Assembly (NCBI GenBank): GCA_945865725.1
Contig: CAMBEO010000008.1
Location: 1 to 59,775, forward strand
From: Thermoflexus hugenholtzii JAD2
GTDB lineage: Bacteria > Chloroflexota > UBA11872 > UBA12225
Length of the DNA stretch: 59,775 bases
Reading direction: 5' to 3'
Part shown: positions 14,707-54,172 of the stretch, one piece after another
Numbering within the stretch: position 1 is the first letter of the stretch
Layout: each line of letters opens with the position of its first letter
Program-made: the position numbers and the translations under genes
The notes under the pieces: model-generated
Told to the model about the DNA's origin: nothing
Database searches by the model: none
Seen by the model: only the letters and a program-made list of their open reading frames with translations

Positions 14707-16197
14707 TCAGTCGGCGCAGGTCGGTGCCGTCGTCGACACGACGGCAATGGCGTGCACCGCGACGGCCTCGCCGCGACCGATGGCGTCCAGGCCCTCGTTC
14801 GTCTTTGCCTTCACGCTGACCATGATCGGGTCAAGCCCCATGGCATCAGCGAGGCGCGCCCGCATCGCTTCGACATGCGGCGCGAGGCGTGGTCGCTCGA
14901 GCACCACCGTCGCATCGACGCTTGCCGGACTGAACCCCGCTGCGGCCAGGTGCCCTACCACGTTGCGCAGGAGGCCAATGCTGTCCGCGTCCTTGAAGCG
15001 CGGATCGCCCGGCGGGAAGAGTCTCCCGATGTCCCCGAGCGCGCATGCCCCAAGGAGGGCGTCGGTGACCGCGTGCGCGAGCGCGTCCCCGTCGGAGTGG
15101 CCGGTGCATCCGACGTCGTGCGGCACGACGACCCCTCCCAGGACGAGGGGGCGCCCGGCTGCCAGGCGATGCACGTCGTAGCCCGTACCCGTCCGCGTCA
15201 TTCCATTGGGATGGGGAGGGGTGGTGCTTCCCTCTCCCGCCGCAGTAGGCGGGGGAGGGGTGGTGCTTCCCTCTCCCGCCGCCGCGGGCGAAGGAGGGGT
15301 GGTGCTTCCCTCTCCCGCCGCCGCGGGCGAAGGAGGGGTGGTGCTTCCCTCTCCCGCCGCCGCAGGCGGGGAAGGGGTGGTGCTTCCCTCTCCCGTTGGT
15401 CCGCGGGCATCCTTGCCCGCCGGGGTAGAGGGGGTGGTGCTTCCCTCTCCCGCCGCAGCGGGGGAGGGACTGAGGGTGGGGGCTTTGACGGCCGCGCGCC
15501 TCGCGAGGAGCGCCTCCACCACCTCGACGTCGTCGGGCATCGTCACCTTGAGGCTAGCCTGGCTGCCGGGGAACGTCACGACGGGGAAGCCGGCCGCCTC
15601 GACAATGCCCGCATCGTCCGTGAACGACGCCGCGCGATCTCCCATGACCTGGTACGCCTCGAGGAGCCGGTCAGTCCGGAAGGCCTGAGGCGTTTGTGCC
15701 GCCCAGAGCGCGGCGCGGTCGACGGTCTCGATGACGGCGACGCCATCCTCGCCCACGCGCTTCAGCGTGTCCCGCACGGGAATCGCCGCAACGGCGGCAC
15801 CATGCATGCGCGCGGCCGCGATGCCTGCTTCCACCACGTCGCGATCAACGATCGGGCGCGCGGCGTCGTGGATCACGACTATGGGCAGGTCCGGCAGCGC
15901 CGCCAAGCCATTGGCCACGGATTGCTGCCGCGTCGAGCCACCCGGAACGACGGCGATGACCTTTCGCCAGCCAGCGTCCCGCACGACCTTCCAGGCGTCA
16001 CTAATCCGCGTCGCGGCGACGACCAGGACGATCGCGGCGACGTCAGGGACGCTCTCGAACGTGGCGACCGAGTGAGCGAGCATCGGGCGGCCGGCAATGT
16101 CCATGAACGCCTTGTCGACGCCCCCGAGGCGAGTCCCTGTTCCCGCGCCGACGACGACAACCCCGACAGCCCCTGCGCTCCCCTCGTTCCTGCTCAC
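14707..16197 (-). CDS. ispDF: Bifunctional IspD-IspF (2-C-methyl-D-erythritol 4-phosphate cytidylyltransferase / 2,4-cyclodiphosphate synthase) with repeat-derived linker
   Basis: 496 aa; N-terminal IspD (AGTGTRLGGVDKAFMDIAGRPML) and C-terminal IspF (GTGYDVHRLAAGRPLVLGGVVVPHDVGCTGHSDGDALAHAVTDALLGACALGDIGRLFPPGD) joined by tandem [13 protein letters not shown]. Confidence 0.93.
   Translation of the reverse strand: MSRNEGSAGAVGVVVVGAGTGTRLGGVDKAFMDIAGRPMLAHSVATFESVPDVAAIVLVVAATRISDAWKVVRDAGWRKVIAVVPGGSTRQQSVANGLAALPDLPIVVIHDAARPIVDRDVVEAGIAAARMHGAAVAAIPVRDTLKRVGEDGVAVIETVDRAALWAAQTPQAFRTDRLLEAYQVMGDRAASFTDDAGIVEAAGFPVVTFPGSQASLKVTMPDDVEVVEALLARRAAVKAPTLSPSPAAAGEGSTTPSTPAGKDARGPTGEGSTTPSPPAAAGEGSTTPPSPAAAGEGSTTPPSPAAAGEGSTTPPPPTAAGEGSTTPPHPNGMTRTGTGYDVHRLAAGRPLVLGGVVVPHDVGCTGHSDGDALAHAVTDALLGACALGDIGRLFPPGDPRFKDADSIGLLRNVVGHLAAAGFSPASVDATVVLERPRLAPHVEAMRARLADAMGLDPIMVSVKAKTNEGLDAIGRGEAVAVHAIAVVSTTAPTCAD
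15229..15475 (-). repeat. In-frame tandem array of the GC-rich hairpin repeat (39-bp period) inside ispDF
   Basis: Copies of TTCCCTCTCCCGCC at about 15229, 15268, 15307, 15346, 15385 and 15439; encodes ([13 protein letters not shown])n. Confidence 0.95.
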
Positions 16198-17839: not shown

Positions 17840-18062
17840 GCCGCAGGGGTAGTGCTTCCCCCTCCCGCCGCAGCGGGGGAGGGATTGAGGGTGGGGGCGC
17901 TACGTCGGGGAGCTACGTGGAGGCCGGGGTGGTGCTTCCCTCTCCCGCCGTAACGGGGGAGGGACTGAGGGAGGGGGCGTTACGTGGGAGGCCAGGGTGG
18001 TGCTTCCCTCTCCCGCCGCAGCGGGGGAGGGATCGCATACGCGGATAACGATGGTGGGGGCG
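17840..18062. repeat. Cluster of at least three GC-rich hairpin repeats between radA and clpC
   Basis: Three copies of CCCTCCCGCCG(C)AGCGGGGGAGGGA(C/T)TGAGGGTGGGGGC-like sequence plus GCATACGCGGATAACGATGGTGGGGG. Confidence 0.9.
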
Positions 18063-29339: not shown

Positions 29340-29770
29340 TCGTTATCCGCGTGAGGGATTCCCCCTCCCGTTGGTCCGCGGGCATCCTTGCCCGCCGGGG
29401 TAGGGTGGTGCTTCCCTCTCCCGCCGCAACGGGGGAGGGACTGAGGGTGGGGGCGCGTGGGTCAGGCTGGGGGTCACGCAGGATTGACGCGCCATCCCGC
29501 AATCGGATGGTAGCGAAGCACCGGGCCGCGCACCCGGATACCGATAATGGGGGCGGCGCTTCCCCCTTCCGTTGGTCCGCGGGTGAAAAACCTTGCCCGC
29601 CGGGGTGGGGTGGTGCTTCCCTCCCCCGTTGGTCTCGCGGGTGAAAAACCTTGCCCGCCGGGGTGGGGTGGTGCTTCCCTCCCCCGTTGGTCTCGCGGGT
29701 GAAAAACCTTGCCCGCTGGGGTGGGGTGGTGCTTCCCTCTCCCGCCGCAGCGCGGGGCGCTTGCGGCCAA
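29340..29770. repeat. Repeat cluster upstream of fumC, including a 3 x 58-bp tandem array (29579-29752)
   Basis: GCGGGTGAAAAACCTTGCCCGCCGGGGTGGGGTGGTGCTTCCCTCCCCCGTTGGTCTC repeated at 29579 and 29637, with a variant at 29695. Confidence 0.93.
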
Positions 29771-29959
29771 TGGAAGGGGGCGCGTGGGTTAGGCCGGGGG
29801 GATATTCAGGATCGACGCACCGTCCCTCCGGCGAGGCGGCGGAAGGGTCCGGCCGATAAGAAGCGCAGCCGTCGGGGTACTATCATCTGCGCGTTTGCGC
29901 CTGCCGGGTGATGGGACCATGCACGGCGGTCTCCCAGTGGTCCCGTCAGCACGGAGCCA

Positions 29960-47232: not shown

Positions 47233-49230
47233 ATGATCCGGATGGGCATGGGGCGAGGCGGGCGCGGGGAGCAGCGGCCGGGCGTGAGCAAGGAGCTGCC
47301 ACCGGTCTCCGCCCGGCGCCTCTACGCCATCCTGTGGCCCTACCGGGCGCGCCTTGCCCTCTCCGGCCTGCTCCTGCTCTACACCGCGGCCGTCGGCCTC
47401 GTCTTCCCCCTCGGGGTCAAGGTCCTGATCGACTCCGCCCTGTCCGATGCCGATCCCGCGCAACTCGATTGGGTCGCCGGCGCCCTCATCGTGATGTTCC
47501 TGACGGAGTCGATCGCGAGTTTTGTCCAGGGCTACCTCGTCGGCGGCACGGGCGAGCGCCTCGGCAACGACCTTGCCATGCGCGTCGCCGACCACCTCCT
47601 TCGCCTCCCGATGCGCTACTACGACCGCCAGCGCACCGGCGACCTCCTCGCGATCGTCGGGTCCGACGTCACCCTCGTCCGGTCAGGCACCCTCGGGACG
47701 GCGCTGCCCCTCGTCTCGCAGGTCGTCCGCCTCGCCGGCAGCATCGCGATCGCGATCTCCCTCAACTGGCGCCTCGCGATGTTTGTCGTCGTCATCACCC
47801 CGCTCGTCATGGCCATCGCCATCACCGCGGGTCGGCGCGTGCGCACGCTGTCGCGCATGGCGCAACAGGGCGTCGGCGAGGCCACCGCCGTCCTGAGCGA
47901 GGTGCTCACGAACGTTCGCGTCGTCAAGGCGTTCGGGCGCGAGCCCCACGAGCGCGTCCGCTACCTGGATCGCATGGCCGAGGTCCTCCGCCTCGGCTTG
48001 CACCGGACCCTCATCGACTCGTCGGTCGGCCCCTCGATCACGTTCCTGAGTTTCAGCGCGATCACCGCCGTGCTCTGGGTCGGTGGACAGGAGGTCATCG
48101 CCGGGCGATTGAGCGCCGGAGACCTTGTCGCGTTCCTCATGTACCTCATGGGAGTGGCCGCGCCCATCGGCGCGCTGACCCGCCTGTACACGCAACTCCA
48201 GCAGGCCCTCGGGGCCGCCCAGCGCATCTTCGCCCTGACCGACGAACCCGTGGAGATCCAGGACCGGACTGACGCGCGCGCGCTCCCAGCAGGTAAGGGT
48301 CGCGTCCAGTTCGAGAGCGTCCACTTCGCGTACGCGCCGGATCGCGAAGTCCTCCACGGCCTTGACTTGCTCGTGGAACCGGGCCAGACGTGCGCCGTGG
48401 TCGGACCGTCGGGCGCCGGCAAGACGACGACGATCGGCCTCCTCCTGCGCCTGTACGAGGTCACCGCCGGGGCCGTCATCGTTGACGGGTGCGACGTCCG
48501 CGACGCGACGCAGGCGTCACTGCGCGAGGCGATGGCCCTCGTGCCGCAGGAGCCCGTGCTCTTCGCGACGACCGTTGGTGACAACATCCGGTACGGGCGC
48601 CTTGACGCGACCGACGACGAGGTTGAGGAGGCCGCGCGCGTCGCTAACGCGCACGAGTTCGTCAGCCGCCTGCCGTCGGGCTACGCGACGGAGGTGGGGG
48701 AGCGGGGCGTGCAACTCTCCGCGGGGCAGCGCCAGCGGATCGCCATCGCCCGCGCCATCCTGCGCAACCCAAGGATCCTCCTCCTCGACGAGGCGACGGC
48801 CTCCCTGGACAACGAGTCGGAGTTCCTGGTCCAGGAGGCCCTTGACCGCCTCATGCGGGACCGCACCACGATCGTCGTGGCGCACCGCCTCACCACCATC
48901 GAGAATGCCGACAAGATCGTCGTCCTCGATGAGGGCCGGTGCGTCGAGTCGGGCACGCACGCCGAACTGCTCTTGCACGCCGGGCTATACGCGCGTCTAT
49001 GGACGCGCAGCTTCGAGGATGAGAGGGATTTCGTCTCCACGCGCGGAGCGCCTGCGGAGTTCCCTGACGGCCGCCCGACCCGAACCGCTCGCCGGGCCGT
49101 CCTGGCGGGTGACGCGATCGCGCGGGTGCCCGGAAGGACCCCCACCCTCAATCCCTCCCCCGCTGCGGCGGGAGAGGGAAGCCCCACCCCCTCCCCTCGG
49201 GAGAGCGGTGGGGGGCGCGTACGCGGATAA
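47233..49230 (+). CDS. MsbA/LmrA-like ABC exporter (TMD-NBD fusion) with repeat-encoded C-terminus
   Basis: GPSGAGKTTTIGLLLRLYEV, LSAGQRQRIAIARAILRNPRILLLDEATASLDNESE; last about 30 aa [31 protein letters not shown] is translated repeat. Confidence 0.94.
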   Translation: MIRMGMGRGGRGEQRPGVSKELPPVSARRLYAILWPYRARLALSGLLLLYTAAVGLVFPLGVKVLIDSALSDADPAQLDWVAGALIVMFLTESIASFVQGYLVGGTGERLGNDLAMRVADHLLRLPMRYYDRQRTGDLLAIVGSDVTLVRSGTLGTALPLVSQVVRLAGSIAIAISLNWRLAMFVVVITPLVMAIAITAGRRVRTLSRMAQQGVGEATAVLSEVLTNVRVVKAFGREPHERVRYLDRMAEVLRLGLHRTLIDSSVGPSITFLSFSAITAVLWVGGQEVIAGRLSAGDLVAFLMYLMGVAAPIGALTRLYTQLQQALGAAQRIFALTDEPVEIQDRTDARALPAGKGRVQFESVHFAYAPDREVLHGLDLLVEPGQTCAVVGPSGAGKTTTIGLLLRLYEVTAGAVIVDGCDVRDATQASLREAMALVPQEPVLFATTVGDNIRYGRLDATDDEVEEAARVANAHEFVSRLPSGYATEVGERGVQLSAGQRQRIAIARAILRNPRILLLDEATASLDNESEFLVQEALDRLMRDRTTIVVAHRLTTIENADKIVVLDEGRCVESGTHAELLLHAGLYARLWTRSFEDERDFVSTRGAPAEFPDGRPTRTARRAVLAGDAIARVPGRTPTLNPSPAAAGEGSPTPSPRESGGGRVRG

Positions 49231-53115: not shown

Positions 53116-54172
53116 ATGACCGGCGACGCGCCCGCGACCCCGCGACGCGACGCCGACGACCCGTGGGCCGTGCCGCACGCGCGAAGGAACGTGCCCCTCC
53201 TGGTCCTCGACGGCTTCGTCTTCGCCCTCGGCTTCAACTTCCTCTCGCCGGTCGCCATCATGCCGGTCTTCATCGCGCGCCTCACCCCCATCGACGTCCT
53301 GGCCGGGTCGTTCACGGCACTGGAGCAAATCGGGATCGCGCTCCCGAAGTTCGTCGCCGCCCGGTGGACCGAACGGGCGGCGCGGGCCGGGCGCCGACGG
53401 TCGGTGCGACACCAAGGCGGCGGAGCGGGCAGGGATGCCCGCGGTCCTGGCGCACGGCGGTCGGTGCGACACAAAGGCGGCGGAGCGGGCAGGGATGCCC
53501 GCGGACCAAGAGGACGGCGGAGCGGGCAAGGATGCCCGCGGACCCAGTACACCCGACCGGCAGTTGGCGCGACACGACGGCGGCTGGCGGGCGGCGGAAC
53601 ATCAGGATGGCACGGCCGGCGGAATGGCACGGTCGGCCGAGCGGGCTGGAGATGTCCCGCGCCGAGTGCGAGTGGGGACGCCCCCGATGACCGGTGACGC
53701 ACGACGGTTCGGCCACTCCGCCCCACCCCTGGGGACGCGGTTGCCCGCGGACCAAGCCCCCTGCCCGCCGCAGCGCGGGGCGCTTGCGGCCAATGAAGGC
53801 GTACTGGTCCGCGGGCTTCCAGCCCGCTCCGGCGCTGTGGCAGTCCCACCCTTTTCGCGCGCCGCACGGCGGTTCGGCCACTCCGCCCCACCCCTGGGGA
53901 CGCGGTTGCCCGCGGACCAAGCCCTCGCCGATCCAGCTCGCCGAACGCGCCGGCGCCCCGCGATCGACCTACGTCGCGTCATGGTCTGGATCGACATCCC
54001 CTTCTCGGTCGCCGCCCCCCTCGTGGGCGGTCTCCTCGCCGCGACCGTCGGCTTCGACGCGATCGATGCGGTCGCCGTCGCCGCCTACCTCGCCGCGGGC
54101 GTGGCCGGGGCCACCGTCGTCCGCCTCCTTCGCCGCCGACCGACCCGCGTGGCCAGCGTCGGGGCCGCCTGA
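53116..54172 (+). pseudogene. Remnant of MFS transporter (tandem paralog 2), central region replaced by repeats
   Basis: N-terminal RRNVPLLVLDGFVFALGFNFLSPVAIMPVFIARLTPIDVLAGSFTALEQIGIALPKFVAARWTERAARAGRR and C-terminal WIDIPFSVAAPLVGGLLAATVGFDAIDAVAVAAYLAAGVAGATVVRLL lie in different frames, separated by about 540 bp of repeats. Confidence 0.85.
53400..53935. repeat. Composite repeat block inside the MFS pseudogene
   Basis: 60-bp-spaced copies around GCGGGCAGGGATGCCCGC (53425, 53485), a third hairpin core at 53522, a 108-bp copy of 53022-53130 at about 53593-53701, and two copies of CGGTTCGGCCACTCCGCCCCACCCCTGGGGACGCGGTTGCCCGCGGACCAAGCCC. Confidence 0.9.

Follow-up and report, generated by a model that had tools for sequence, protein, structure and literature searches.

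A REP-like palindromic repeat in the long linker of a predicted IspD–IspF fusion of Thermoflexus hugenholtzii

Introduction

Rickettsia palindromic elements (RPEs) are carried by AT-rich intracellular bacteria. In PMC10969869 (citing Ogata 2000, 2002), they are described as palindromic repeats of ~150 bp that are unusually frequent as in-frame fusions in unrelated protein genes, where they encode a stereotyped peptide. A second group, the intragenic REPs tagged with GTAG or CGTC, consists of small stem-loops of several bacteria that lie mainly between genes, with some in frame inside them (PMC3733652). Many of their host genes serve DNA replication/synthesis or repair, Thauera and R. conorii have clusters encoding 43-82 aa, Chloroflexi carry GTAG repeats (GTAG-23 of T. 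roseum), and RPE-4 and RPE-6 have been placed among the CGTC repeats (PMC3733652).

The repeat described here was found in a 59,775-nucleotide stretch of the Thermoflexus hugenholtzii JAD2 genome (the window), where it lies between genes and in the linker of ispDF. Like RPEs, its elements are short palindromes scattered through the genome and in frame in unrelated genes, with a stereotyped peptide; they differ in being ~48-63 bp long and GC-rich, in belonging to an unrelated bacterium and in having formed a local 39-bp array. We regard the repeat as a putative functional analogue of RPEs, on the grounds of its behaviour. It resembles the tagged REPs in being a stem-loop that is mainly intergenic but sometimes in frame, with DnaE, MutL and RecG among its hosts, but it has mosaic tails and carries no consistent GTAG/CGTC tag next to the hairpin. 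GTAG stands just 5' of the hairpin in 8 of 155 copies, and 41 of the 155 have CGTC no more than 10 nt 3' of it (background 8%) but not adjoining the hairpin, which places the repeat outside the tagged superfamilies. A further difference from the GTAG REPs is that the T. hugenholtzii genome (85% complete) contains no RAYT-type transposase.

Outside Rickettsia and Proteobacteria, the locus is a clear example of a short palindromic repeat that has inserted in frame into protein genes again and again; relatives free of the insert can be compared with it, and its frame preference can be measured. It also shows one route to long disordered linkers in multi-domain enzymes.

Results and discussion

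A predicted IspDF enzyme with a long linker

The ispDF gene (14707-16197, minus strand) encodes, from a GTG start, a protein of 496 aa in which an IspD domain and an IspF domain occur within a single uninterrupted ORF. The IspD domain covers aa 12-232 (15502-16164, minus strand; Pfam PF01128, E 2.8e-58; pLDDT mostly 96-98) and the IspF (YgbB) domain aa 335-487 (14737-15195, minus strand; Pfam PF02542, E 3.6e-58; pLDDT mostly above 85). The initial annotation had described a fusion of this length, and the ORF encodes exactly the linker peptide that it quoted. The best NCBIfam match is the bifunctional IspD/IspF model NF006899, with a score of 349.7 bits, which is below the cut-off of 417, while the single-domain ispD and ispF models both pass their cut-offs; the long linker plausibly lies behind the low score of the bifunctional model. 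Judged by its domains and its best NCBIfam match, the protein is a predicted bifunctional IspDF enzyme.

AlphaFold2, run with a 32-sequence alignment, modelled both domains with high confidence, and the best Foldseek matches were the IspDF enzymes of C. jejuni (1w55/1w57) and H. pylori (8xhu/8xkf). Between the domains, residues 247-330 mostly had a pLDDT of ~40 and residues ~239 to 333 had no secondary structure; with a pTM of 0.55, the relative placement of the domains was not predicted. Together with the alignment of relatives, this delimits a linker of aa 236-332 (15202-15492, minus strand) that is occupied by the repeat array read antisense and predicted to be disordered between two confident domains, as expected for the flexible linker proposed initially. 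C. jejuni and H. pylori have crystallised IspDFs with the same domain order as the 496-aa fusion, which is set apart by a linker longer than that of its relatives and by its sub-cut-off NF006899 score.

The fusion in related genomes

IspD and IspF form a single ORF with a short linker in five genomes of the same family, including the genus mate, and in two genomes of a sister family in the same order. The distance from the QTPQ motif to GxGxD is 78-87 residues in the fused relatives versus 169 in the 496-aa IspDF; in the genus mate, whose QTPQ motif is off the contig, the short linker was read from the linker alignment. Comparison across relatives had been proposed as a check on the repeat-built linker, and it bears the proposal out, as the linkers of the relatives are ~84 residues shorter and repeat-free. 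Divergence between the IspDF linker and that of the genus mate is too high for the exact insertion point to be read.

Two more distant members of the same family carry ispD and ispF adjacent but unfused, which means that the family has seen either a gain or a loss of the fusion. Separate genes in relatives had been named initially as evidence against a domesticated linker; they exist in these two genomes, but the closest relatives are fused. Since the fused relatives, genus mate included, are without the repeat, the repeats lengthened the fusion and did not create it, and the idea that fusion and repeat arose together fails. On this comparison of sequences, the IspD–IspF fusion is older than the repeats in its linker.

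The repeat family

The common head of the repeat, GGTGCTTCCCTCTCCCG, has 344 matches (≤2 mismatches) in the 2.3-Mb genome, a draft of 106 contigs that is 85% complete, and the reversed-pattern control has 0, which puts the count well above chance; eight genomes of the same family have 1-4 matches each, which is near chance. Side-by-side comparison of 109 copies revealed a mosaic construction, in which the same head precedes different tails: type A is CCGCAGCGGGGGAGGGACTGAGGGTGGGGG, type B has an extra second small hairpin, type C bears GCGCGGGGCGCTTGCGG and type D bears GCGGGCATCCTTGCCCGC. The fold of type A is a 12-bp hairpin (-13.4 kcal/mol, z -2.1), and that of type D has z -2.7. With a length of 20-60 bp, many copies, a stem-loop and a mainly intergenic location, the family is REP-like in the broad sense.

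In the window, three element copies (17851-18047, plus strand) lie between the next two genes, and an intergenic element with a type D array occupies 29407-29773 (plus strand). The period of this type D array (29550-29744) is 58 bp, which is not a multiple of three, in contrast to the ispDF array. Another intergenic tandem array, at 53381-53542, has a 60-bp period; its hairpin, GCGGGCAGGGATGCCCGC, is similar to the type D tail but comes without the common head, so that tails may be able to spread on their own.

The repeat had no match in Rfam or among viral contigs, and no clean target-site duplication was seen around its copies. Mobilisation by a RAYT was considered and rejected, as no Y1_Tnp transposase is present in this 85%-complete genome; in the same phylum, five other genomes that bear the repeat do have Y1_Tnp.

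Repeat units in the linker

In the assembly, the linker of ~95 residues is made up of six units of the hairpin repeat, namely a complete common element, an element with a variant tail and four 39-bp units, all on the plus strand. The outermost is a complete 48-bp element with a type A tail and a 12-bp hairpin, encoding a 16-letter peptide (15436-15483). It is followed by a 57-bp element with a type D tail, the GCGGGCATCCTTGCCCGC hairpin and the in-gene peptide STPAGKDARGPTGEGSTT (15379-15435), and then by the four 39-bp units, which Tandem Repeats Finder and side-by-side comparison of copies place at 15340-15378, 15301-15339 (identical to an adjacent 39-bp unit), 15262-15300 and 15223-15261 (the most diverged of the four). 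Tandem Repeats Finder reports the 39-bp array at 15213-15395, with 4.7 copies, a 93% match and a score of 303. The 39-bp (13-codon) period given initially therefore applies to the four units, but they are followed by a spacing of 57 bp and, at the outer end, by a full-length unit of 48 bp.

A 30-mer diagnostic of the 39-bp unit has 0 matches elsewhere in the genome (≤3 mismatches), and in the 838-kb sample of genome stretches described below, adjacent heads lie 39 bp apart nowhere else. The 39-bp unit, being unique to the ispDF locus, therefore arose by local tandem duplication. Its fold is barely better than those of shuffled sequences (z -0.7), which gives it the look of a degenerate element. 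The initial annotation was right that an interspersed repeat builds the IspD–IspF linker, a repeat that the linkers of relatives lack; its statement that the same repeat is found intergenically holds for head and hairpin but not for the 39-bp unit.

GC-rich tandem repeats coding for Pro/Ala linkers are common, and a local low-complexity expansion might come to resemble the interspersed repeat through GC-rich convergence. This is extremely improbable here, as the linker contains complete A and D elements and its 17-base head is exactly that of hundreds of intergenic copies, against 0 in the control. An assembly artefact, with reads of intergenic copies misjoined into ispDF or the number of units inflated, might be suspected from the fragmentation of the draft, the ~344 repeat copies in the genome and the two identical adjacent units. 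However, the 39-bp unit is present at no other locus and so could not be imported from elsewhere, the reading frame runs unbroken for 1.5 kb, the units differ from each other and similar in-frame copies lie in many other genes, all of which make such an artefact very unlikely.

Insertions in other genes

Insertion into genes was surveyed in an 838-kb sample of genome stretches, 87% of which is coding according to a simple codon-usage gene caller. Of 98 head clusters, 76 were intergenic, 17 gene-interior and 5 at gene edges, which indicates, given the high coding fraction, that genes are avoided but not spared; ispDF is one of the 22 gene-overlapping sites. Hosts supported by Pfam are NuoG, LarC, RecG, a BatA-like protein, a YfhO-like protein, a bifunctional nucleotidyltransferase/phosphomutase, MurG, MutL, DnaE and an ABC transporter, the gene of which has an element at its C-terminal end (49138-49185, minus strand) encoding a 17-letter peptide in the same frame as in ispDF. 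The inserts of DnaE and NuoG are missing from the genus mate, whose proteins are 89% and 86% identical, respectively, and IspDF, DnaE and NuoG are thus three unrelated genes in which an RPE-like in-frame insertion is absent from relatives. For MutL and LarC, insertion is unproven, since the linkers of relatives vary and are about as long.

No stop interrupts any of the three antisense frames of the element, whereas in types A and B one of the sense frames contains a stop. In well-scored genes, 16 of 18 antisense heads are read in phase 1, which gives the 12-letter peptide, and this phase is used at 11 of 11 independent loci; the two off-phase heads are second copies within arrays. Were the frames equally likely, the agreement of 11 loci, on a frame that was not predicted in advance, would have a probability of ~2e-5. 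When the element was placed at random in sampled genes in a simulation, the gene caller read through it about equally often in each of the three frames (at least 94%), and therefore did not make the phase bias. As one of the other two antisense frames is arginine-rich and the other contains cysteine, we infer that selection against these alternatives explains the bias, although a codon-phased insertion preference may also produce it. A bias of all insertions towards the antisense orientation, seen in a smaller sample, was gone in the larger one (12 antisense versus 10 sense), and only the phase bias within antisense copies survived.

A period divisible by three had been taken initially to suggest selection for frame. 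In the ispDF array, all five spacings are multiples of three. The intergenic head spacings of the 838-kb sample lie between 43 and 91 bp, and 20 of the 56 are divisible by three, no more than expected by chance; only one of the four in-gene spacings outside ispDF (56, 56, 35 and 69) is so divisible. The period is therefore no evidence of frame selection by the family, and as a family property the suggestion has to be given up; the frame needs to be kept only over the total insert, not at each spacing.

Origin of the linker

We consider it probable (roughly 0.85) that a REP-like palindromic element amplified specifically in this lineage, was tolerated as filler that keeps the frame, and in this way lengthened an ispDF that was already fused. 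An older family of hairpin repeats in the genus would have given rise to one sequence variant that amplified in the T. hugenholtzii JAD2 lineage, and its copies would have remained mostly intergenic, with some staying in genes where the whole insert is free of stops and keeps the frame. Elements of no fewer than two types (A and D) would then have entered the inter-domain linker of the fused ispDF, antisense to the gene, after which local expansion of a shortened unit, probably through slippage or unequal recombination, would have produced the 39-bp array. The Pro/Ala/Gly/Ser peptide encoded by the insert, predicted to be disordered, would space IspD and IspF without disturbing either fold. 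The order of these events, the mechanism of duplication, the unaffected function of the protein and the mode by which the elements move are our reconstruction of what probably happened.

Describing the repeat as domesticated, as was done initially, implies a benefit. A long flexible linker could improve the enzyme, for example by allowing IspD dimers and IspF trimers to co-assemble, and such a role would fit the linker-like, disordered peptide, the spacings of the array and its standing as the largest gene-interior repeat cluster of the 838-kb sample. However, the relatives manage with much shorter linkers and the crystallised C. jejuni and H. pylori enzymes have only about 370-380 aa, many unrelated proteins contain this peptide too, the spacings of tandem copies are not independent of each other, and the 39-bp units differ at both synonymous and nonsynonymous positions, which together leave adaptive domestication unlikely. 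The presence of the repeat in many unrelated genes points to tolerance instead, and the locus is a caution that linkers made of repeats need not be adaptive.

A more speculative idea, which we hold to be doubtful though less so than domestication, is that the repeat itself has been selected as protein-compatible, with inserts persisting when they encode a disordered, nearly uncharged 12-letter spacer. If this were true, a selfish hairpin would supply disordered linkers to essential enzymes (IspDF, DnaE and NuoG), and local expansion would tune the length of the linker.

Age and spread of the repeat

An older hairpin variant is present both in T. hugenholtzii JAD2 and in the genus mate, including at the same position in the DnaE gene, and the TTCCC variant is absent from the sampled stretches of the genus mate, a sample that is partly biased as some contigs were picked for having hits. 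The simplest reading is that an old family is common to the genus and that one variant was amplified recently. At DnaE (L135:5481-8933, L178), newer copies lie beside the shared older hairpin and are present only in T. hugenholtzii JAD2, which suggests that old elements act as landing sites.

Among 400 genomes of the phylum, 13 match the repeat at ≤3 mismatches, some of them holding the related spelling TCCCCTCTCCCG...CGGGGGAGGGG. One distant genome of the phylum has 62 copies of a related hairpin, TCCCCTCTCCCGCCGCAGCGGGGGAGGGG, a hint of a widespread or transferred repeat family. Within the T. hugenholtzii genome the density of heads is uneven, with 0-2 per 20 kb on four contigs (C1, C4, C6 and C12; stretches L094-L099, L116-L121 and L134) and up to 15 per 20 kb on two others (C3 and C5), whose G+C content is similar to that of the sparse ones.
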